In this document: piece after piece, positions 8,948-32,011 of the stretch | Layout: each line of letters starts with the position of its first letter | How positions within the stretch are numbered: the first letter of the stretch is position 1 | DNA from: Aedoeadaptatus coxii | Lineage (GTDB): Bacteria > Bacillota > Clostridia > Tissierellales > Peptoniphilaceae | Direction: 5' to 3' | Assembly (NCBI RefSeq): GCF_001553115.1 | Contig: NZ_KQ960157.1 | Location: 62,001 to 126,000, forward strand | Length of the DNA stretch: 64,000 nucleotides | Made by a program: the position numbers and the translations under genes | The notes under the pieces: generated by a model | Told to the model about the DNA's origin: nothing | Seen by the model: the letters and a program-made list of their open reading frames with translations, nothing else | The model's database searches: none

Positions 8948-10482
8948 TAGACGCCTTCGACTTTTCGGTCCAAGATGCCGTATTTCGTCAGGGGATCGGC
9001 TGCGTATTGCGCCGTATCGTAAGTTACTTGTTTGCCCGCTTTAAAGGCTTCCACGTCGGATTTTTTAACGAGGTAGCCGGTGACGCGAATGAGATCGCCG
9101 TCGTCGTTGTAAGCGGAAAGGTAGCGGTTGCCGAGTTTAAAGCCGCCTTTAAATACGTCGAGAACTGCCTTCGGGTTGCGCTTCGCCGTTTCGTCGAAGG
9201 GGAAGTGATCGCCGACGCCGGAGGGGAAGTATTTTTGGAATTTTGCCGCTTGGCGAATGTGGGTGTAAAGATCCGGTTCCTGACCGATGGGAATACGGTG
9301 TGCCGCCGTGGTACCTTCATCGTTTGCCGCCCCTACTTGTGCGTGGAGCATAAAGCGATGGTTCCATACCGGGCTGTAATCGGATGTAAAGTTCTTTACC
9401 CGTTCTTCGATAAAGTCCATAACGCGAATGCCCATGGCATCTGCCGATTCGTCGATACCGAATTTTGCATCGACGCCGTCTTTTTTAAGAAGTTCTTGAG
9501 TACATTCCGCAAGGCCTACCATGCCGAAGAGGCCGACGAAGTTGTCGAGATCGACGAAATCTTCTTTAACGAGGAAGTTGGATTTAAAGAAAGAGGTTTC
9601 CTCGACCAGATAGTGGATTTTCGATTCCATAAAGTGGAGCATGGTGTCGATGGCGCGGGGCAAGTTGTTTGCGAAGAACGCGTCCACGCTTTCGGCGCCT
9701 TCCGCAATTTTATTGAGGCGTAAGCGGCTCAGGGTAAAGGCGCCGCCGTGTTTGGGAAGGGCGTTGTAGCAGGATGCGATGCCGTAATCTACATCGCCGA
9801 AATCGCTGCTGTAGTATTTATCGTTGGCGAAGGCCGGGTTGGCGCAGACGAGGCTCGTCTTTAATGCCTTTTCCGCAAAGGCATCGGGCGTCTTGTCTTC
9901 GTCATAAAGAAGGGTCATGTTCGGCGTTACGATTTGAAGTTCCGCCACAAGGTCTAAAATAATATTGCCCGTTTCCGTTTCGTAAGGGCCGATATTGGCG
10001 TGGCAGAAAGAATCGTCTACGGTGCGATCCAGCTGAATCAGAAAGCTCTTTAAAATAGCCTTTGCTTCTTCCCGATCGGTTTTTTGTACAAAGGGCTCGA
10101 GGAGATCGTCGAGGGCGCCGATGTAAACCGGAAAGCGGGTAACGCTGGGTACGTGGTGGTACATGACAAGGAGAGCCGTAGTCGCTTCTAAAAGCGTCTT
10201 CGGCGGTTCCATACGTAAAAAGTCGCTGCCTTCTTTTAAGTATTTTTCGTAATCCGGAAGGATGTAGCGAGGCGCATAGGGCGCGTGGCCTTCGTCTAAA
10301 TCGCAGATTTCACTCTTATCGTAAAGTTCGTAAAAAGCATCCTCTCCCTTTACCGGATAATCCATTACATTTTCCGCAATTTTTGCGAGACGAGACGTTT
10401 GTTGTCCATAAGTTTGTGCAGTATCTTGCTGAATAGCTTTTACCGCATCCCGTACACTTTCAATACTAAAAAAACGTTCCAT
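8947..10482 (-). CDS. yjjI: YjjI-family glycyl-radical enzyme
   Basis: A 511-residue protein of the YjjI (DUF3029) family. It is shorter than pyruvate formate-lyase but has the C-terminal glycyl-radical loop R-V-T-G-Y-L, giving Gly469 as the radical site, and a candidate active-site Cys in A-S-C-Y-N around the middle. The chemistry of this family is not established, so no substrate is assigned. GGGAGG lies before the ATG. It forms a two-gene operon with its activase and diverges from a Crp/Fnr-family regulator, which may link expression to anaerobic or redox signals (inference). Confidence 0.88.
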   Translation of the reverse strand: MERFFSIESVRDAVKAIQQDTAQTYGQQTSRLAKIAENVMDYPVKGEDAFYELYDKSEICDLDEGHAPYAPRYILPDYEKYLKEGSDFLRMEPPKTLLEATTALLVMYHHVPSVTRFPVYIGALDDLLEPFVQKTDREEAKAILKSFLIQLDRTVDDSFCHANIGPYETETGNIILDLVAELQIVTPNMTLLYDEDKTPDAFAEKALKTSLVCANPAFANDKYYSSDFGDVDYGIASCYNALPKHGGAFTLSRLRLNKIAEGAESVDAFFANNLPRAIDTMLHFMESKIHYLVEETSFFKSNFLVKEDFVDLDNFVGLFGMVGLAECTQELLKKDGVDAKFGIDESADAMGIRVMDFIEERVKNFTSDYSPVWNHRFMLHAQVGAANDEGTTAAHRIPIGQEPDLYTHIRQAAKFQKYFPSGVGDHFPFDETAKRNPKAVLDVFKGGFKLGNRYLSAYNDDGDLIRVTGYLVKKSDVEAFKAGKQVTYDTAQYAADPLTKYGILDRKVEGV

Positions 10483-10517
10483 TATTGGCCTCCCTTTCCC
10501 TTTTTCTAGGGATAGTA

Positions 10518-10560
10518 TATACTGAATGAAAATAAAAAAAGATGCCAGATGGCATCTTTT
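10518..10560. promoter_or_regulatory. Divergent control region with hairpin in the Crp/Fnr leader
   Basis: The palindrome AGTATATACT (10514-10523) can supply a -10 box to either strand. Just downstream, a perfect 10-bp stem (10537-10546 with 10551-10560) with an AGAT loop ends in four Ts and directly precedes the GGAGGG ribosome site of the Crp/Fnr gene. It could act as an attenuator or protect the leader; the T-run is short, so strong termination is not certain. Confidence 0.5.
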
Positions 10561-10570
10561 GGAGGGCTTT

Positions 10571-11188
10571 ATGGATTTTTCTACGCTTTTTTCAAATGGA
10601 ATGCTTTCCGGACGCAGACGGTTTCAAAAAGGGGATATGCTCCTTTATCCGGACAGCGAGCAATACGCCATTTTGTTTTTGGAATCGGGCACGGTGGAAG
10701 TTTCCCGATACGATACGGAAGGGGAACGTATTTTGCAGAGCTTTATGGCGGCGCCTCAATGTTTCGGCCTCGTGGAATCTTTTGCCGATGCGCCGATTCT
10801 CTGCGGTGTAAAGGCCGTGACAAAGGGCAGTTGTTACGCTCTTTCCCCGGAGGATGCCCTCTTTAAAGACGGCAAGGTTTTAGACTTTCTGCTCCGCTAC
10901 ATTTCCACCCTTTATGTAGAGGAAATGGGGCGCAGCGCCCGTGAAAAACATCTTTCCGGGAAGGAGCGCCTGCTCCACACTCTTTATCGAATGGCGCAAA
11001 AGCCCTTCCCCTACACCCTGCCTCTAACTCGGGAAGATCTCTCCGATCTGTTAGGCATTCCTCCAAGAAGCCTTTACCGCTATTTAAAGGAACTGGAAGA
11101 TGAGGGTTTTTTAACGCGTGTGCGGGGCAAAGTTGTCCTCGACGAAGAACACATCGCTAGGATAGACGGTATTTTTCATCGGATTTAA
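10571..11188 (+). CDS. Crp/Fnr-family transcriptional regulator
   Basis: A 205-residue regulator. The N-terminal half is a cyclic-nucleotide-binding-like beta barrel (about 15-115); the C-terminal half has a winged helix with L-T-R-E-D-L-S-D-L-L-G-I-P-P-R-S-L-Y-R-Y at about 154-173. No N-terminal Cys cluster of FNR type is present, so it probably does not bind an Fe-S cluster that way. The start at 10571 was chosen because GGAGGG lies just upstream; an upstream ATG would include the hairpin. It diverges from yjjI-yjjW and likely controls it. The 3' end overlaps the convergent YwaF-like gene by 32 bases. Confidence 0.85.
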   Translation: MDFSTLFSNGMLSGRRRFQKGDMLLYPDSEQYAILFLESGTVEVSRYDTEGERILQSFMAAPQCFGLVESFADAPILCGVKAVTKGSCYALSPEDALFKDGKVLDFLLRYISTLYVEEMGRSAREKHLSGKERLLHTLYRMAQKPFPYTLPLTREDLSDLLGIPPRSLYRYLKELEDEGFLTRVRGKVVLDEEHIARIDGIFHRI

Positions 11189-11861
11189 CCACGTGGCGAT
11201 CGATAAAGATGTGGAATTTCATGCCGAGTATAATCAGGAGACAGGAGACGGCCAGGCAAAGGGGCACGTATAAGAGATCGGGCATATCGCCGACCAATGG
11301 CTTTTCTCTGAAATAAAAGTAGTTTCCGTCGACCAACGGATTTACGAGATAGGTAAACACGAAGTACGCAAAAAAGGCTTTAAGGGCCGGTTGTATATCT
11401 TTGTGGGTAATGGTAAAGCCCCTGGTAATGTGGCCGTAGAGGCCAAAGAGGAGGTTCACCGTGTGGCTGATAAAAAAGCTGAGGCCGATGGGGTGATTAA
11501 TAGGCGTCACTTCCAAAGGATAGGCGAAACTCAACAGGGCGAAAAAGCCGAAGGCCGTGCCGATAATGTAGAGCGTCCGCTTTTTCGTAAAAAGATAGGC
11601 TAAAATCACGAGACTCGCCACTCGACAAATATGTAAGGGCAAGGATTCCGATAAAATGAAATCGTAGTGGAACACGTAGGTTCCGTACATTAAGATTTGT
11701 TGAAAAATAATAATCCCGGCGAGGATTTTATCCGCCCGATTGGCGTGGGTGCGAATGGTTTCCCGCTTGCGCATTAAAAAGTAAAGCACGACCAAAAAGC
11801 CGATTAAGTAAACAAAATGGCCCGGTCCCAAGAAGGAAATATACTCTTCTTTTAAGGTCAT
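11157..11861 (-). CDS. YwaF/TIGR02206-family membrane protein
   Basis: A 234-residue protein with about seven transmembrane helices, a short cytoplasmic start and conserved polar helix residues such as H-Y-D-F and L-P-L-H-I-C-R at about 67-82, which are typical of the TIGR02206 (YwaF) family. Its function is unknown. The tail overlaps the convergent Crp/Fnr gene by 32 bases; both reading frames look genuine because both keep family features to the end. AGAGGA lies before the ATG. Confidence 0.75.
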   Translation of the reverse strand: MTLKEEYISFLGPGHFVYLIGFLVVLYFLMRKRETIRTHANRADKILAGIIIFQQILMYGTYVFHYDFILSESLPLHICRVASLVILAYLFTKKRTLYIIGTAFGFFALLSFAYPLEVTPINHPIGLSFFISHTVNLLFGLYGHITRGFTITHKDIQPALKAFFAYFVFTYLVNPLVDGNYFYFREKPLVGDMPDLLYVPLCLAVSCLLIILGMKFHIFIDRHVVKSDEKYRLS

Positions 11862-11956
11862 AAACTAATTCCTCTTTCTTTTTTCGGGTAGTTTAACATA
11901 GTTTTTTACGGTGACGGTGACAATTTTGTGGAGAAGATGTTAAGATTCAGCAAATG

Positions 11957-13324
11957 TTATTCGACTGTTTCTTCAATATCCCCTTCCGGTAAATCGGCGC
12001 GCCATTTACCTAGTCGGAAATAAATCACCGTCATAATAAAGGTGGCGATCCAGCTAATGGGATAGCTCCAGTAAATGGTGTCGATGTTGTTAAAGACGGG
12101 CATGGCCACGACGATCCAACCCAGGCGAATAATAAACATGCCGATGAGCGTAATGATCATGACAGGAATAGAAGTGCCGCTTCCCCGAATGGCGCCGGAA
12201 AGCACCTCTGTAGTAGAGAACACCACGTAAAAGGGCGCCAAGGTTACCGTCATTTTCGCGCCGTAAAAGATGACGCCGTGATCGGCGCTGAATACACTCA
12301 TAAAGGTGTAGCGGAAGCAGACGAGAATAGACGATACGACGGCGACAAAGACCCACGTCATCAGTAAGGATGTCTTAATGCCCGCCGAAAGACGCTTGGG
12401 CTTTCGCGCACCGATGTTTTGGCCGACAAAGGTCGTAATGGCAAGGGCGAAAGCTTCCAGTGATGTAAAGACGAAGCCGTCGATTCGATTGGCGGAGGCG
12501 GCGCCGGCAATGGCTTGAGCGCCGAATACATTGATTTGGCCCTGAATAATAACATTGGAAAGGGCGATCATGGCCCCGGAAATGCCGGCAGGTAACCCGA
12601 TGGCAAAAATATCCCGCAAGCTGTCCTTGTGGAAGCGAATCCGTTTGAAGCGTAATCTGTAAATGTCCGTGGTTCTAATTAAGCTGTAGGTCACGAGAAT
12701 ACCCGATACCGATTGGGCGAAAGCTGTGGCGATGCCCGCCCCTACGGCGCCCATATCGAAAATGCCGACAAAAACCAAGTCTAATATAATGTTTAAAAAG
12801 GCGGATACGGCTAGAAAGTTAAAGGGACGCACGCTGTCGCCGACGCTTCTTAAAACCGCCGAACCCATATTGTACAACATGACGGGCACCATGCCGGCAA
12901 AGACGATGCGCAAATAGCTCGTGGCGGGGCCCATAACTTCCGGCGGTGTGGCGATCCATTTCAAAAACACGGGGGAAAAAATAATCGTAATAATCGACAA
13001 TAAACCACCACCATAAATGGCGATGGCGAAGTTGGTGTGGACTACTTTTGAAAGTTCCTTGCGGTTTTTAGCGCCGTAATATTGGGCGACGAGAACCGAT
13101 GTCCCGGTGGAAAGCCCCATAAAAAGCGCCACGACTAAAAGGGTGATAGCGCCGCAGGCTCCGATGGCGGCCATATCCACTTTCCCTGCAAAACGTCCGA
13201 CGATTAAAAGGTCGGCAGTGTTATAAAGTTGCTGTAATAAAGCGGAGAAGAGCAGGGGTAGCGTAAAGGTCAACAGGTTTTTCCAAATACTGCCTTCTGT
13301 CAGATCTACATTTTCCCGCTTCAT
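11957..13324 (-). CDS. MATE-family efflux transporter
   Basis: A 455-residue multidrug and toxin extrusion transporter with 12 predicted transmembrane helices and the family N-terminus (L-T-E-G-S-I-W-K-N-L-L-T-F-T-L-P). Members use Na+ or H+ gradients to export cationic drugs or toxic metabolites. The start was set at the ATG at 13324, which has AAAGGG upstream and matches the family N-terminus; an upstream ATG adds nine residues without a ribosome site. It stands as a single gene with no adjacent regulator. Confidence 0.9.
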   Translation of the reverse strand: MKRENVDLTEGSIWKNLLTFTLPLLFSALLQQLYNTADLLIVGRFAGKVDMAAIGACGAITLLVVALFMGLSTGTSVLVAQYYGAKNRKELSKVVHTNFAIAIYGGGLLSIITIIFSPVFLKWIATPPEVMGPATSYLRIVFAGMVPVMLYNMGSAVLRSVGDSVRPFNFLAVSAFLNIILDLVFVGIFDMGAVGAGIATAFAQSVSGILVTYSLIRTTDIYRLRFKRIRFHKDSLRDIFAIGLPAGISGAMIALSNVIIQGQINVFGAQAIAGAASANRIDGFVFTSLEAFALAITTFVGQNIGARKPKRLSAGIKTSLLMTWVFVAVVSSILVCFRYTFMSVFSADHGVIFYGAKMTVTLAPFYVVFSTTEVLSGAIRGSGTSIPVMIITLIGMFIIRLGWIVVAMPVFNNIDTIYWSYPISWIATFIMTVIYFRLGKWRADLPEGDIEETVE

Positions 13325-22977: not shown

Positions 22978-22999
22978 AAAAGAGCCTCCGGGAGACTCT
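22978..22999 (-). terminator. Terminator after zinc ABC transporter operon
   Basis: Inverted repeat AAGAGTCTCC / GGAGGCTCTT (minus strand, one G-U) with a tight loop runs into six Ts and overlaps the stop codon of the permease gene. Confidence 0.75.
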
Positions 23000-23802
23000 T
23001 AATTCTTTTTCAATAGTTGCCGTCCGATCATAATGGCGACGAGGGTCGCCACGCTAAGGAGCACGATGCTCCCGCCCGGTTTCAATCCGCCATAATAAGA
23101 GAGGACCAAGCCCAGTTCCGTAAAGGCGACGCCAAAGAGAACGGAGGCTATATGGGTTTTTTTATAACTCAGTTTCAGTTGAAGGGCGCAGGATACGGGA
23201 AGCACTAATAGAGATGAAATAATCAGTACCCCGACGGTGCGCGCGCTTATGGCTACTGTAAGCCCCGTTAAGATGACGAAGATGCCGGAAAGTCTGTCGG
23301 CCTTAATGCCCGAAAGGCGGGCGGATATAGTATCGAAGGAAAGGTAGAGCAGGGCGTCGTAGTTTTTATAGAGAAAAATAACGACGAGTACGGATACGGC
23401 GAGAATGGTGTAAAATTCAAAATTTGTAATGGCGACGATGGTGCCGAAGAGGAAGGACTCGAAATTCGCTCCCCCTTTTACAAAGCCCGATAATATCGAC
23501 GCCAAACCCACCCCCGTGGACATAATCACCGCCGTGGAGATTTCGCCGTAAGAGGGAAAGTAGCGGCGAATCCATTCCATGGAAAAGGCGGCGACGGCGC
23601 AGGTAATAATGGCGCCTAAAATGGGATTAATGCCGATTAAAAGCCCGAGCATAACCCCGGCGAGGGAAACGTGGGAAAGGGCGTCGCCGATCATGGCGAG
23701 CCGACGGTTGACGATGACGACCCCCATGGAGGGAATGACAATACCGAGCATAAGGCCGATGGCCATGGCCCGGAGCATGTAATCATATTGAAAGATTTCC
23801 AT
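22999..23802 (-). CDS. znuB: Zinc/manganese ABC transporter permease (ZnuB-like)
   Basis: A 267-residue ABC-3 family permease with about eight transmembrane helices. The family motif D-A-L-S-H-V-S-L-A-G-V near 40-50 is clear, and the later G-x-L-x-x-S-S-L-L-V-L-P-V segment near 190 is as expected. It overlaps the ATP-binding gene by 20 bases and ends the znuA-znuC-znuB operon. The metal is taken as zinc because of the His-rich binding protein and divergent Zur-like gene; manganese cannot be excluded. Confidence 0.9.
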   Translation of the reverse strand: MEIFQYDYMLRAMAIGLMLGIVIPSMGVVIVNRRLAMIGDALSHVSLAGVMLGLLIGINPILGAIITCAVAAFSMEWIRRYFPSYGEISTAVIMSTGVGLASILSGFVKGGANFESFLFGTIVAITNFEFYTILAVSVLVVIFLYKNYDALLYLSFDTISARLSGIKADRLSGIFVILTGLTVAISARTVGVLIISSLLVLPVSCALQLKLSYKKTHIASVLFGVAFTELGLVLSYYGGLKPGGSIVLLSVATLVAIMIGRQLLKKN

Positions 23803-24460
23803 AGCCCATCCCCCTTTCCAAGATTCCGCCTTCCAGCGTATAAACCTCGTCTACCAGGTTTTCGATCAGGTGCATTTCGTGGGTGATCATTAAAATGGTA
23901 ATCTTGTGCTCGTCGTGTAGATGGTTAAGCAATTCGTAAAGTGCGTTGCGCGATTTAAAATCGATTCCCGTGGTCGGCTCGTCTAAAATTAAAACGTCCG
24001 GCCTCGAAATCAAGGCTTTGGCGAGAAGCACTCTCTGTCTTTGCCCCCCAGAAAGGGCGCCGTAAAGGCGATCGTCTAAATGTTGCAGCCCGACGAGAGC
24101 GAGGGCGTCGTCGATGCGATCCCGCTTTTCTTCTTTGCTTATTTTTTTCCCGTAAAGGCCGAGGCCCACCAGCTCAAAAATCGTAATGGGGAAGTCGTAA
24201 CTGGATACCATAAGCTGGGGCACATAGCTTACGCCGGAAAAATCCGTGCGTCCGCTTACTTTTTCCCCTTTATAAGTTATGGTGCCGCTGCCGGGCTTTT
24301 CGATGCCCAGGAGCAATTTAATCAGCGTGGATTTCCCCGATCCGTTCGCTCCTATAAATGCGAGAAAATCTCCCTGATTAACAGAGAGATTGACTCCTTT
24401 TAAAACTTGGTTTTTCCCGTAGGAAAAAGCCACATCGTCTACACGATAAAGGTTCATCAT
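23783..24460 (-). CDS. znuC: Metal ABC transporter ATP-binding protein (ZnuC-like)
   Basis: A 225-residue ABC ATPase. Walker A is G-A-N-G-S-G-K-S-T at 37-45, the signature L-S-G-G-Q-R-Q-R-V near 136-144, and Walker B L-I-L-D-E-P near 158-163, followed by a switch His in I-T-H-E. Two ATG codons in tandem at the start overlap the znuA stop, so the exact first residue is uncertain by one. The order znuA, znuC, znuB is a standard zinc uptake operon. Confidence 0.92.
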   Translation of the reverse strand: MMNLYRVDDVAFSYGKNQVLKGVNLSVNQGDFLAFIGANGSGKSTLIKLLLGIEKPGSGTITYKGEKVSGRTDFSGVSYVPQLMVSSYDFPITIFELVGLGLYGKKISKEEKRDRIDDALALVGLQHLDDRLYGALSGGQRQRVLLAKALISRPDVLILDEPTTGIDFKSRNALYELLNHLHDEHKITILMITHEMHLIENLVDEVYTLEGGILERGMGYGNLSI

Positions 24461-25542
24461 TGCAGTGCCGACTCCAATACCTTTAAGTTGCTTTCCATAC
24501 GTTCGATATAGTTTTTGTCGCTTTCATATTCCAAGGGATCCAATTCTTTAACTTGAGCCCCGGTTTCGGAAGCGATGGTTTGGGCGATTTTGTCATCTTC
24601 ATGAGGTTCGGTAAAGACAAATTTAATGCCTTTTTGCTTCATGGTTTCGATGATTTCCTTCATGGCCTTGGGATCCGGTTCGCTTTCGGAGTTAATACCT
24701 TCGATGGGGATTTGATGCAAACCGTAATCTTTTGCAAGGTAACCGTAGGCTTCGTGGCTGACGACGATGTCTTTGGTTTTTGCTTTTGCAAGAGCATCTT
24801 TAAAGGACGTATCGAGAGCGTCTAACTTTTTGTTAAGTTCCGCAAGGTTGGCTTCGTAAGTTGCTTTGTTGCCCGGATCTTGTTTGATCATAGCATCGGC
24901 AATGTTTTGTGCCATTTGTTTTGCGTTTTTAACGGACATCCAAACGTGGGGATCTTTTCCGCCGTGATCGTGATCGTGTTCTTCGGCGTCGTGATCGTGG
25001 TCATGATCGTGTTCCGCCGCGTCGTGGTTGTGATCGTTGGCGTTGGCGTCATGATCGTGGTCGTGATTGTCGGCATCGTGGTCGTGTTCGTGGGCTTCTT
25101 CCCCGTCGTCGTGATGGTGATGGTGGCCGCCGGCTAAAAGTTCGATGCCTTTCGATGCTTCCACTACTTCACCGTCTTCACCCATGGTGTCTTTAACGGT
25201 GTCGACCCAGGATTCCAAACCGGCGCCGTTATAAATAAAGAGATCCGCTTCTTTTAACATGTTCATGTCTTTAGGAGAAGGTTCGAAGCCGTGAACCCCT
25301 TGTCCCTTGGGAATCAAGCAGGTTACTTTTCCGGAATCGCCGGCGATAGCTTGTGCCAAATCTCTGGTAATATAAGTGGACGTAACGATGTTTAATCCGT
25401 TTTCTTTCTTGTTTTCCGTCTTGTCTTCCGCTTCCACTTTATTGTTGGTGGAGTTTGCATCGGCATTGGCGTTTTGTTTGCTGCCGCATGCCGTTAAAAG
25501 TGCCAAGGCGCAAACGGCGATGGCAATTTTTCTGAATTTCAT
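24457..25542 (-). CDS. znuA: Zinc-binding lipoprotein (ZnuA-like) with long His-rich loop
   Basis: A 361-residue solute-binding lipoprotein of the cluster A-1 family. A lipobox L-T-A-C gives Cys19 as the lipid anchor. Likely metal ligands are in G-V-H-G-F (H84), D-P-H-V-W (H199) and V-S-H-E-A-Y-G. Between the first and second ligands is an unusually long acidic His-rich loop, residues 140-193, with 20 His in 54 residues, mostly H-D repeats. Such loops capture zinc and are a mark of zinc rather than manganese proteins. GGAGG precedes the ATG. It is the first gene of the operon. Confidence 0.92.
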   Translation of the reverse strand: MKFRKIAIAVCALALLTACGSKQNANADANSTNNKVEAEDKTENKKENGLNIVTSTYITRDLAQAIAGDSGKVTCLIPKGQGVHGFEPSPKDMNMLKEADLFIYNGAGLESWVDTVKDTMGEDGEVVEASKGIELLAGGHHHHHDDGEEAHEHDHDADNHDHDHDANANDHNHDAAEHDHDHDHDAEEHDHDHGGKDPHVWMSVKNAKQMAQNIADAMIKQDPGNKATYEANLAELNKKLDALDTSFKDALAKAKTKDIVVSHEAYGYLAKDYGLHQIPIEGINSESEPDPKAMKEIIETMKQKGIKFVFTEPHEDDKIAQTIASETGAQVKELDPLEYESDKNYIERMESNLKVLESALQ

Positions 25543-25583
25543 TATATGCCTCCTAAATAGAAATCGTTATTATTTACTTTTTT

Positions 25584-25611
25584 AGTATAACAGAAATGAT
25601 TCTTATTTAAA
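25584..25611 (-). promoter_or_regulatory. Candidate znu promoter with Fur-type operator in the spacer
   Basis: On the minus strand TTTAAA (25606-25611) and TATACT (25584-25589) are 16 bases apart. The spacer holds CAGAAAT-G-ATTCTTA (25591-25605), a 7-1-7 arrangement with the AATnATT core of Fur-family boxes, though only part of each half-site matches. The position would let the divergent Fur-family protein block transcription. Confidence 0.5.
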
Positions 25612-25687
25612 GGGTTTTTTGATTATTTTTTTGAAAAACTATTCTTTTTTATCCGCTTGCTCTATGATAGAGGAAAGGGGGTATGGT

Positions 25688-26095
25688 ATGGAAACTATTT
25701 TAAGGCAATATGGCCTGAAAGCCACGAAGGGGCGTTTGGCGGTTTTAGACATTTTAAAAGGCGCCCACGTTCCCATGTGCGCCTTGGATGTCTATAAGGT
25801 TGTAAAAGATGAGACGACCGCTTCCCTTTCCACAGTCTACCGCATTTTAAATCAGCTGACGGAAGTCGGACTGTTGGAGGCCTCGGTTCAACAGGAAGAT
25901 GTAACCTATTACGAATACCACGGCCACGAACATAATCACTACATCGTCTGCTCGAAATGCGGCAAGTTTACGCCCATTCACAATTGCCCGCTAAAGGATT
26001 TAGACGATCACATTGCAAAATCGACGGGCTACGCCATTACGGGCCACAGTTTTCAACTGGAGGGAATTTGCCCCGATTGTTTAAATAAGAAATAG
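25688..26095 (+). CDS. zur: Fur-family repressor, probably Zur
   Basis: A 135-residue Fur-family protein with an N-terminal winged helix (about 10-75), the H-G-H-E-H-N-H metal and dimer hinge at 78-84, and two C-x2-C pairs (C88/C91 and C128/C131) for the structural zinc. The divergent znuACB genes make a zinc uptake regulator the best guess over Fur or PerR. The ATG at 25688 was chosen because GGGGG precedes it and the family start follows; upstream in-frame codons add an unlikely hydrophobic stretch. The stop is followed by a shared terminator. Confidence 0.85.
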   Translation: METILRQYGLKATKGRLAVLDILKGAHVPMCALDVYKVVKDETTASLSTVYRILNQLTEVGLLEASVQQEDVTYYEYHGHEHNHYIVCSKCGKFTPIHNCPLKDLDDHIAKSTGYAITGHSFQLEGICPDCLNKK

Positions 26096-26098
26096 AAG

Positions 26099-26124
26099 AA
26101 ATCTGCTGCGGCAGATTTTTTTAT
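26099..26124. terminator. Bidirectional terminator between zur and the MFS gene
   Basis: Perfect 8-bp stem AAATCTGC / GCAGATTT with TGCG loop (26099-26118) and a T-run to 26122 for the plus strand. It lies between the convergent zur and MFS genes. Confidence 0.8.
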
Positions 26125-27275
26125 GCCCTTTTTTGGTGCTTTAACTGCATGGCGAGGAGGACACTTGCCAGCGTAATGGCCATATTAAATAACACCACAT
26201 AGCGTGGCGCATCGATTCCCGACATAGCCGTAAGCTTTCCCGCAAGGGCGAGCACCGCGTAATTGGCAACGGATGATGCGATCATCACTACCGATGTAAT
26301 TTTCCCCTTGTGATCCGGATAATAGCTGTTGGCTTCGGCGACGACTAATTGCAACACGCCGCCGGCGCCGCCGTAGCCGATGAAAAAGCCCGCGACCAAG
26401 AGGGCAAGCGGCGTTTTCACAAAGTAAATAAAGACAAGGGCCAATAGCGACATCATGGGATAGGCGACTAACACATCTTCCGTGCTCCATTTTTTCAACA
26501 CGACAAAGGCCGTGGCCAAAATCGCCACAATGGTGCCTAAGGCATAAAACGATTGAATTTTCGACGGGTCCGCCATGCCGTAAAGGGCGCCTAATTCCTG
26601 ATTGCAGTTGAGCCAAAGAATAAAGGTGGCGGTGGCGGTAAAGCCCATTAATATAGCGGGAAGGGCCTCTTTTTTAAATACAAAGGGCTCGGAGGTGTAG
26701 GCCGTTCCCTTTTTCGTTTGCGGAAAGGGAAGGCAGGCGATGACCATGCCGTCCAAGGCGATGAGCCCGCCCATGAGATAAAAGAGGGCGCGATAGGTAA
26801 AGGCCATGGTCGTGGCTGCACCGATCATAAAGGGCAGGAGAAATTGACCGATGGACATGGAAAATTTCGTAAACATATTGGCGGTGCCGCCCTTTTCCCC
26901 GAAAATTTCGAGAATCGTCGGCGTCACGCAGGTGTCCAAAAAGGAATTGGCGATGCCGCCGAGGACGGCGAGGCCGTATGCCATTTTAGGCGAGGACGTA
27001 GCGGCAATGCCGAAAAAGTACAGGGCGTAGAAAAAAACGCCGATCAGCCCCGATGTCTTTCGCCCGAATCGGTCGGATACATAGCCCGATATGGGAAGGG
27101 CTACTAATCGCCCCAAGCCGAGGGCGGCGATGACTTGTAATACCGTGGCGATGCCCGGCGCCTGCCACGCCGATGCGAGGGATTCCTTATACTGGGAAAG
27201 AATGGACACGCCGATGCCGTGAACGAAATAGGTCATGTAAAGGGCGAGGGCGGTGATGTAATGGCTGCGTTTCAT
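26121..27275 (-). CDS. MFS transporter
   Basis: A 384-residue major facilitator with 12 predicted helices and the loop 2-3 motif S-D-R-F-G-R-K near residue 65. Closest in look to small sugar/drug-type MFS proteins; the substrate is not known. The start at 27275 has AAAGGAG; the longer upstream frame runs through a structured leader and its promoter, so it is not protein. It is preceded by a 170-base leader with a paired stem, a hairpin and a terminator (27276-27447), so it is probably controlled by attenuation. Confidence 0.85.
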   Translation of the reverse strand: MKRSHYITALALYMTYFVHGIGVSILSQYKESLASAWQAPGIATVLQVIAALGLGRLVALPISGYVSDRFGRKTSGLIGVFFYALYFFGIAATSSPKMAYGLAVLGGIANSFLDTCVTPTILEIFGEKGGTANMFTKFSMSIGQFLLPFMIGAATTMAFTYRALFYLMGGLIALDGMVIACLPFPQTKKGTAYTSEPFVFKKEALPAILMGFTATATFILWLNCNQELGALYGMADPSKIQSFYALGTIVAILATAFVVLKKWSTEDVLVAYPMMSLLALVFIYFVKTPLALLVAGFFIGYGGAGGVLQLVVAEANSYYPDHKGKITSVVMIASSVANYAVLALAGKLTAMSGIDAPRYVVLFNMAITLASVLLAMQLKHQKRA

Positions 27276-27447
27276 AAAATCTCCTTTTATCGTCACAAAA
27301 AAAGATGACCTTTTGGTCACCTTTTTCTGCGACATAATGTCGCCTCGACGGTATGCCCTTCCGATATTTGGTAAGCAACAGTAAGTAAGAAACAACTCTA
27401 AGTAAAAACTTATAGCTAGGAGTAGTGGGCATCGCACTCCGTCGATT
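27276..27447 (-). ncRNA. Structured cis-regulatory leader RNA of the MFS gene
   Basis: From the promoter-predicted start near 27447, the minus-strand leader has long-range helices: TCGACGG (27445-27439) pairs with CCGTCGA (27351-27345), and ATGCCC (27432-27427) with GGGCAT (27358-27353), closing a 68-base domain. Then comes a perfect hairpin, arms 27343-27338 and 27334-27329, and a terminator-like hairpin AGGTGACC / GGTCATCT followed by seven Ts at about 27321-27295, just before the ribosome site. A competing stem GGAGT/ACTCC (27440-27436 with 27423-27419) would break the first helix. No known riboswitch core was recognised. A leader-peptide attenuator is the main alternative: an ATG at 27432 has GGAG four bases upstream. 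Confidence 0.6.
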
Positions 27448-27453
27448 GTTTCC

Positions 27454-27482
27454 ATTATCCCATGAAGGGGCGGCTCGGTCAA
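27454..27482 (-). promoter_or_regulatory. Strong sigma-A promoter of the MFS leader
   Basis: On the minus strand TTGACC (27482-27477) and GATAAT (27459-27454) are separated by exactly 17 bases. The start would fall at about 27447, two bases before the first helix of the leader. Confidence 0.8.
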
Positions 27483-27501: not shown

Positions 27502-27918
27502 TTACATACGGGCGATGGAACGAAGATCTTCGTCGATAGAATCCACCATTTCCCGAAATTCCACCGGATTCATAAGTTCGCAGACGGAAAAGAGATCCTC
27601 TCCCGCTAGTTGGAAATGAACTGCCAAATCGCCATCTTCGATTTCCACGTAAAATCCCAAATCCGGATTTTCGATGATCGCCTCAAAGCCGTAGCTTTCG
27701 CCGTCTAATATTTCGACGCAATTTTCGTAAATGGATTCGATTTCGGAAAAACGGAAATAGCTGTCTTCCAACTCAAATTCATCGTCTCCGTCTCTTCCAT
27801 GGATTTTGCAAATAATATAATCCGTATCGTAGGGCATACCGGCGCCCCATCCCGGGGGATATTCGTATTCCAAAAGTTCGACGGCGACTTCTTTTTCTCC
27901 CTCTTTAAGATTCAACAT
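27502..27918 (-). CDS. Hypothetical acidic protein
   Basis: A 138-residue soluble, strongly acidic protein with no transmembrane segment or signal peptide. It is rich in aromatic-plus-Glu pairs such as F-E-L-E-D-S-Y-F-R-F near 49-58 and looks like a small beta-rich protein. A loose resemblance to WapI-type immunity proteins was noticed but is not enough for a call. The ATG at 27918 has GAGGAG seven bases away and lies 14 bases inside the upstream nitroreductase gene, so it is likely co-translated with it. Function unknown. Confidence 0.6.
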   Translation of the reverse strand: MLNLKEGEKEVAVELLEYEYPPGWGAGMPYDTDYIICKIHGRDGDDEFELEDSYFRFSEIESIYENCVEILDGESYGFEAIIENPDLGFYVEIEDGDLAVHFQLAGEDLFSVCELMNPVEFREMVDSIDEDLRSIARM

Positions 27919-28681
27919 GATCTTGCTCCTCACCTATTAAATGAAATCCTTGTTTTTCCGCAATTTTCGCGAGATTGGCTCGATTGACGCTGGCATTTTC
28001 AAGACGGGTTACCACCTGTTTTGAAAAAGAATCCACTCGGCGATTGGCATCGCGCAAATCGTAATAGGTCTGCATTTCCTCGTCGTAATCGGCGATAACG
28101 TCCATGTAATGATCGAATTCACGGTAGCGATCGGTGAAAAATTTAAGTTCCATATCCATTCTCGGCTTGAGTTGCGGCGATTGATTGGGCTTACCGAAGC
28201 CGATACCCACTACGGGGAAGGTAAGCTCGGGCAAATCCAAAAGATCGATTAAAGCTTCCGCGTCGTTTAAAATGCTCCCTAAATAGACCGCACCCAGGCC
28301 CGCCGCTTCAATGGCGCAGGTCACATTTTGCGCGGCCAAGGCGGCATCGGTAAAGCCTTGGAAAAAGCGATCGGCATCCCGCTCGGCAGCAAGTTCCACC
28401 CCTTGTTCTCTGGCGATGCGACTGTTGCGGTACACGTCGACGATGAAAATCCAAAGCTCCGGCGCACGGGCAATGTATTCCTGGCCGCCGATTTCGGCAA
28501 TGGCCTTTCTCGTCTTTTCATCTTCAATCCGAATAATAGAATAAGACTGCATCCCCGTGGAAGTGGACGTGCGATTGGCCACCTCTTTCAGCGTCTCGAT
28601 GAGTTTTTCGTCGACTTTGTCTTCTGTAAATTCCCGAATGGTGCGGTGATTCAGCGCCGTTTCAAACACGGACTTGTCCAT
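27905..28681 (-). CDS. Nitroreductase-family FMN oxidoreductase
   Basis: A 258-residue NfsA/NfrA-type flavoprotein. The N-terminal H-R-T-I-R-E-F at 12-18 binds FMN phosphate, the middle A-Q-N-V-T-C-A-I-E-A-A-G-L-G block near 117-130 and the G-I-G-F-G-K-P-N loop near 158-165 match the family. It would reduce nitro groups, quinones or flavins with NAD(P)H. The stop of the upstream gene is one base before its ATG, so the three genes 29225-27502 form one operon. Confidence 0.87.
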   Translation of the reverse strand: MDKSVFETALNHRTIREFTEDKVDEKLIETLKEVANRTSTSTGMQSYSIIRIEDEKTRKAIAEIGGQEYIARAPELWIFIVDVYRNSRIAREQGVELAAERDADRFFQGFTDAALAAQNVTCAIEAAGLGAVYLGSILNDAEALIDLLDLPELTFPVVGIGFGKPNQSPQLKPRMDMELKFFTDRYREFDHYMDVIADYDEEMQTYYDLRDANRRVDSFSKQVVTRLENASVNRANLAKIAEKQGFHLIGEEQDHVES

Positions 28682-31922: not shown

Positions 31923-32011
31923 TGGCGGAGCGGGTGGGATTCGAACCCACGTGCCCGTGAAGGCAAACTGATTTCGAGTCAGCCCCGTTATGACCACTTC
32001 GATACCGCTCC
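31923..32011 (-). tRNA. tRNA-Ser(CGA)
   Basis: An 89-base class II tRNA on the minus strand. The acceptor stem GGAGCGG/CCGCTCC closes it, the 3' CCA is encoded, a long variable arm is present, and the T arm carries GGTTCGAATCC. The anticodon loop CTCGAAA gives anticodon CGA, reading UCG. Coordinates include CCA. Confidence 0.93.

Follow-up and report, generated by a model that had tools for sequence, protein, structure and literature searches.

The window (the whole stretch of 64,000 nt that was analysed) carries on its minus strand a gene for an MFS transporter of 384 aa (26121..27275; Pfam MFS_1, E 1.3e-21), for which every NCBIfam match remained far below cut-off. Upstream of it and also on the minus strand lie a WapI-like immunity-family gene (27502-27933) and a nitroreductase gene (27905-28681), which overlap as listed. 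In each of the eight genomes compared here, homologues of both are found at this position, just upstream of the leader. Just past the MFS gene, the region 22999-26095 holds ZnuA/ABC-3-type metal uptake genes and a Fur-family regulator gene on the other strand. The MFS and Fur-family genes are 26 bp apart in the window, approximately 1.1 kb in G004 and approximately 2.7 kb in G006 (L038, approximately 9400-12100).

An orphan structured leader RNA of a single genus lies in front of the MFS gene, which is presumed to be the controlled gene. The elements of this leader that had been named in an earlier note on this DNA were all confirmed in the sequence of the minus strand, between the promoter and the MFS start (27482-27275). 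The near-consensus promoter that had been proposed was recovered by a consensus scan as TTGACC (27482-27477), a 17-nt spacer and GATAAT (27459-27454), with TG 5' of the -10 element (27454..27482 in all), approximately 20 nt past the stop of the WapI-like gene. Helix P1, whose 5' strand TCGACGG (27439..27445) begins 8 nt past the -10 element and pairs with CCGTCGA (27345..27351), closes a domain of about 100 nt, as had been described. Inside it lies the second helix of the earlier description, P2, with the strands ATGCCC (27427..27432) and GGGCAT (27353..27358), the latter having TGCT of the core as an alternative partner. An extra helix, which was absent from that description, was obtained with RNAalifold from the alignment: P3 (27393..27418), a hairpin with a variable loop located within P2. 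It is flanked by near-invariant columns that form the conserved core (27359..27426), with ACTACTCC 5' of P3 and TTTCTTACTTACTGTTGCTTACCAAATATCGGAA 3' of it. A short hairpin immediately 3' of P1 (27329..27343) and an intrinsic terminator hairpin with a 7-T tract (27297..27328) are predicted by folding, and are followed by the ribosome site GGAG (27284-27281) and the MFS ATG at 27275. In this genome, the MFS frame is open upstream across the whole leader (a 453-aa ORF from the TTG at 27482), and annotation may give the MFS protein a wrong N-terminal extension.

The leader was present in all eight examined genomes of one genus (probably Aedoeadaptatus, formerly Peptoniphilus), and its position is syntenic in each of them, with a homologue of the WapI-like gene on one side and of the MFS gene on the other. 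The MFS orthologues behind it in the seven other genomes are 66-87% identical to that of this genome. The promoter pattern is kept throughout: a NATAAT -10 element, TG upstream, a 17-nt spacer and 7-8 nt from the -10 end to P1 were seen in 8/8, with five of six -35 positions matched in seven genomes and three of six in G003. A short hairpin of variable sequence after P1 and a terminator hairpin with a T-tract were both predicted in all eight genomes, which bears out the earlier claim of a hairpin and a terminator just before the ribosome site. Measured from P1, the T-tract ends after 149-153 nt in seven genomes and after 137 nt in G007; a further 20-28 nt lead to the presumed MFS ATG in all eight.

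The core is by far less variable than synonymous positions of the gene behind it. Across the eight genomes, 1227 of 1260 pairwise comparisons agreed over 45 core columns (97.4%), against 2593 of 4424 (58.6%) at the fourfold sites of the MFS gene; 42 of the 45 core columns were invariant, against 15 of 95 fourfold codons. A 26-nt word of the core (27367-27392) is invariant in all eight. In a comparison of 18 kb of the window with approximately 16 kb from each of seven genomes, all eight neighbourhoods had exact words of at least 18 nt in common at just two places, this word and a stretch of a tRNA gene (31923-32011); at a word length of 16-17 nt, one more shared stretch appeared, within the MFS gene. 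Judged by such sequence comparison, the constraint on the core is comparable to that on a tRNA in the same neighbourhood.

With the alignment as its sole input, RNAalifold gave P1, P2 and P3 together, and this structure was examined for covariation in eight rows, none of which was dropped (23 pairs and 177 cells, with 500 shuffles and six slid controls). Paired cells amounted to 99.4% of the 177, and two-sided changes were found at three of the 23 pairs, one in P1 and two in P2, in seven cells. In P1, 100% of the cells are paired, one pair switching both of its bases between U-A and C-G and another going from A-U to G-U; the pairs of the helix that had been predicted to close the domain are kept through two-sided changes. 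The predicted P2 fared similarly, with 97.9% of its cells paired and two-sided changes at two of its six pairs. No two-sided change was detected for P3 in the eight-row alignment, where this helix hardly varies; its loop measures 4, 4, 5, 6, 6, 6 and 6 nt in seven species, and in G007 the distal part of P3 is missing, leaving a gap of 15 columns that is placed imperfectly in the alignment. The conserved core lies inside helices with compensatory changes, as expected for a riboswitch, and this holds for P1 and P2.

None of the 500 shuffles was as high in covariation score, percentage of paired cells or number of two-sided cells, and the structure outscored all six slid versions. The count of pairs with a two-sided change was not outstanding, since 106 of the 500 shuffles were as high, and neither was the count of further pair types (370 of 500). 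These counts lean toward structure, owing to the relatedness of the rows and to the fact that the alignment was in view when the structure was chosen. The strand of the RNA could be fixed as minus: 176 of the 177 cells pair on this strand and 154 on the plus strand, because the G-U pairs fit the minus strand only.

Thermodynamic folding gave a less uniform picture. The whole leader has a folding energy of z = -4.59 relative to shuffles, mainly contributed by the hairpin and the terminator; the domain alone (z from -0.66 to -1.62 across the eight species) is little better than shuffles. The minimum-energy fold contains P1 in 8/8 genomes, P2 in four (G000, G004, G006 and G007) and the whole of P3 in four. 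A structure beyond chance is indicated by the comparison between genomes, not by folding energy alone.

Searches of Rfam and of genome collections were used to examine whether the element belongs to a described family and how widely it is distributed. At gathering score, Rfam matched only two tRNAs in the whole window. With E values up to 10, the leader obtained six matches (E 0.13-9.7), of which one is on the plus strand; none came near the cut-off of its family, the best score being 21 bits against a cut-off of 67. At the loci of the seven relatives, searched with E up to 1, there were three sub-cut-off matches (E 0.0034-0.034), none of them on the leader. The earlier statement that no known riboswitch class could be recognised agrees with this, as no Rfam family reaches its cut-off on the leader, and a search of open-access literature returned nothing pointing to this leader element.

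A covariance model of the leader (R1) was applied with a threshold of E <= 0.01 per genome to genome sets that overlap, those of the class and the phylum being samples; searches of more than 40 genomes used stricter filters, by which weak relatives may be missed. The search of related genomes that the earlier note had proposed recovered the leader with P1 and P2 in all eight genomes of the genus. Among 130 genomes of the family, eight were matched, each once and at this MFS gene. Among 249 genomes of the order, nine were matched: the eight of the genus and G201 (26.7 bits), which was taken as spurious, its score coming mainly from a hairpin. Two of 391 class genomes were matched, both members of the genus, and three of 398 phylum genomes, namely this one and, at chance level, G642 (30.0 bits) and G733 (27.1 bits). 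By the reading of ORFs, the G642 match (L052 1501-1619, minus strand) falls within a gene resembling an amino-acid ABC permease and was taken as chance, and that of G733 lies on the opposite strand of a glycosyltransferase-like gene. The three matches outside the genus were dropped because E values of 0.002-0.005 per genome are expected by chance over 249-398 genomes. In the class of G642, none of 249 genomes was matched at E <= 0.001, in a run that had no positive control. Plasmids and phages searched with R1, and viral contigs searched with a 20-base core pattern, gave no match.

Homologues of the MFS protein (45-58%) are present in three other genera of the order (G013, G221 and G109; L049-L051) without the leader, and upstream of them neither an Rfam match nor an R1 match above 14 bits was found. 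Because of these homologues, the leader was probably either gained in, or kept only by, one genus. Other homologues at approximately 50% were observed in Intestinibacter (L019) and Lacrimispora (L021), located after AroE-like and flavin-oxidoreductase-like genes, names that come from reading the sequences by eye. Such neighbours hint at a pathway for hydroaromatic acids. For the transporter of the present genus, neither shikimate nor quinate was accepted as the substrate, because none of its eight genomes had a Shikimate_dh_N match, a search in which 14 of 14 controls were positive.

The arrangement of the leader bears on how the MFS gene would be expressed. In a consensus scan, the terminator was missing from the minus-strand list and was overlapped only by a match on the plus strand, a result probably due to a stem that extends into the T-tract. 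As a caveat to the promoter assignment, such sites are frequent in the region: the same scan found five, against 3.0 expected in shuffles. By its criteria, no promoter-like site lies between the core and the MFS ATG in any of the eight genomes, although a promoter of another type may be present. Since the terminator lies 20-28 nt before the ATG with no promoter-like site between, control in cis is very likely; judged from these patterns, transcription of the MFS gene very likely has to pass the terminator, whether it comes from the leader promoter or from further upstream. The leader is positioned 5' of the MFS gene in all eight genomes, which, as regards position, is what a riboswitch calls for.

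How the terminator would be switched is less apparent. Folding with the 3' arm of the terminator withheld revealed no antiterminator conserved across the eight genomes: the 5' arm was free or in weak or local pairing that differs between species, and P1 persisted with pair probabilities of 0.75-1.0, apart from one value of 0.53 in G002. The competing GGAGT/ACTCC stem that had been suggested as a switch did not withstand comparison, being complete only in this genome, with four of its five pairs in G002 (GGAGC), and absent from six of the seven other genomes; instead of GGAGT, the corresponding position elsewhere reads GGAGC (G002), or GGACA, GGACG, GGGCG or GGGAA. Two further candidates were rejected. 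An antiterminator between GUUGCUU of the core and the 5' arm of the terminator could be fitted by eye in 8/8, mostly through G-U pairs, and has negligible pair probability; pairing of the 3' arm of the small hairpin with the 5' arm of the terminator is clear only in G002 and G007. A hairpin UGCUU/xGGCA plus CC/GG would compete with P2 and is 92.9% paired, with one pair failing in four of the eight genomes and no two-sided change among the eight.

The reading favoured here, with slightly better than even confidence, is that the element is a cis-acting transcription-attenuation leader RNA, most likely an orphan riboswitch, so far found in one genus. It builds on the promoter pattern, the domain, the terminator, and their conservation, position and strand, all of which are established at the level of sequence. 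Transcription would probably start approximately 2 nt before P1, and the nascent RNA would fold into the P1-P2-P3 domain, whose invariant pyrimidine-rich core would recognise a signal, most likely a small ligand. Depending on the state of the domain, the polymerase would then either be halted by the terminator, 20-28 nt short of the MFS start, and release an RNA of about 150 nt, or continue into the gene. We infer small-ligand binding by the core, regulated termination and the transcription start site from this arrangement. A more specific version, held tentatively and at somewhat less than an even chance, is that of a new riboswitch class confined to one genus, in which a G-poor core would bind the ligand and the terminator would be controlled without the usual antiterminator helix; the ligand would perhaps be the substrate, or a toxic compound, moved by the MFS protein. 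Restriction to a single genus is unusual for riboswitches and counts against the attenuation-riboswitch reading as a whole, as do the lack of a conserved antiterminator, the small number of pairs that vary on both sides, the modest folding of the domain alone, the presence of P2 in just four minimum-energy folds and the MFS homologues that have no such leader. The core is pyrimidine-rich and largely unpaired in the model, and G accounts for 4 of 42 letters in the G006 row. Because so G-poor a composition would be odd for an aptamer, explanations based on a bound protein or on a small RNA stay alive.

The first of these explanations is a protein-dependent attenuator, in which an RNA-binding protein on the single-stranded core promotes or blocks the terminator. 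A repetitive, pyrimidine-rich and largely unpaired invariant core would suit such a protein, as would the UUAC motif, which occurs outside P3 in four copies in seven of the eight species and in three copies in G000. Moreover, no static antiterminator is visible, and a genus-limited regulator would account for the narrow range. However, selection on P1 and P2 is easier to reconcile with a closed fold than with a linear protein site, and the known RNA-binding attenuators (TRAP, PyrR and LicT types) use other motifs. This explanation is regarded as unlikely, at about one chance in five.

A dual RNA is less probable still. Here, the terminated transcript of about 150 nt would act in trans as an sRNA, with the MFS gene expressed by read-through, and its seed would be the pyrimidine-rich ACUCCU, CUUACUUAC, pairing with other mRNAs. 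The element has its own promoter and terminator, as sequence patterns, and a predicted length (149-153 nt, or 137 nt in G007) in keeping with this possibility, and a narrow range is common among sRNAs. In addition, in the middle of L063 in G003, 14 nt on the contig minus strand match part of the core exactly (E 1.1, possibly chance). This stretch is complementary or identical to the core depending on the strand, and lies shortly before a plus-strand ATG as a possible pairing site. On the other hand, the MFS gene seems dependent on read-through, and a loose search with the core in the eight genomes, of a kind that scores short antisense pairing poorly, gave four other matches (E 0.85-1.5) at three loci, none of them present in more than two genomes. 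Two of these matches represent one locus in the close relatives G001 and G005 (88.8% identical over 1422 nt), and the remaining ones occur once each in G004 and G003.

Processive antitermination, in which the nascent domain would modify RNA polymerase to pass the terminator in the manner of put or EAR elements, appears very improbable. A domain at the presumed 5' end, a terminator after it and no visible refolding that would disrupt that terminator are compatible with such a mechanism, but no Rfam match was obtained, and the need for such control at one small gene is not evident.

The least credible alternative is a leader peptide, whose translation or stalling would control the terminator. 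The earlier note had put forward an ORF starting at 27432, and this genome does have an ATG there, preceded by GGAG and opening a frame of 81 aa; the ORF proved not to be conserved, owing to out-of-frame indels and the lack of a shared start codon. A short frame ending in LLLAIS, closed by a stop no more than three codons further on, is common to G001 and G003-G006, but its start (ATG, or GTG in G003) sits within P1 and no ribosome site is visible. In all eight genomes, the 26-nt invariant word contains no stop in any of the three frames, yet the frames leading into it share no common start: for none of these frames does G002 have an ATG, GTG or TTG inside the leader, and G001, G003, G004 and G005 offer nothing but a TTG that lacks a good ribosome site. 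The two core halves are not joined by one frame in all eight, since the P3 loops differ in length and there are gaps in G007 and, of 1 nt, in G003. With no conserved translated ORF with a ribosome site found in the leader across the eight genomes, and a constraint on the core that far exceeds that of fourfold sites, a peptide-based control is scarcely tenable.

Returning to the orphan riboswitch as the preferred interpretation, an element found in one genus only, under a constraint similar to that of a tRNA in its neighbourhood, is well suited to testing how restricted riboswitch classes can become. A single copy per genome, a single target gene and a clear promoter-terminator layout should make the leader easy to assay. 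A ligand, once found, would point to the substrate or the inducer of an uncharacterised MFS transporter.

Several known systems can be compared with this leader. T-box leaders and amino-acid attenuators are likewise terminator-controlled leaders, but no T-box match was obtained here, and the Phe_leader score of 18.4 bits, with a cut-off of 55 (E 0.9), is no more than chance. Terminator platforms are reported to be preferred by Gram-positive riboswitches, and a variant of the FMN riboswitch in Clostridioides difficile, located before an EmrB/QacA-type MFS gene, is reported to act as an ON switch (PMC11477304). This variant, the nearest functional parallel in the literature searched, resembles the present element in being a leader RNA of an MFS gene in a Gram-positive bacterium (PMC11477304); the present leader differs in reaching the gathering score of no Rfam family, and FMN is not among its matches with E up to 10. 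Compared with orphan riboswitch candidates, it is peculiar in its occurrence in one genus (eight species), its G-poor core and the lack of a recognisable switching helix, but it shares with them a core enclosed by closing helices, covariation, a promoter and a terminator before a transporter gene.
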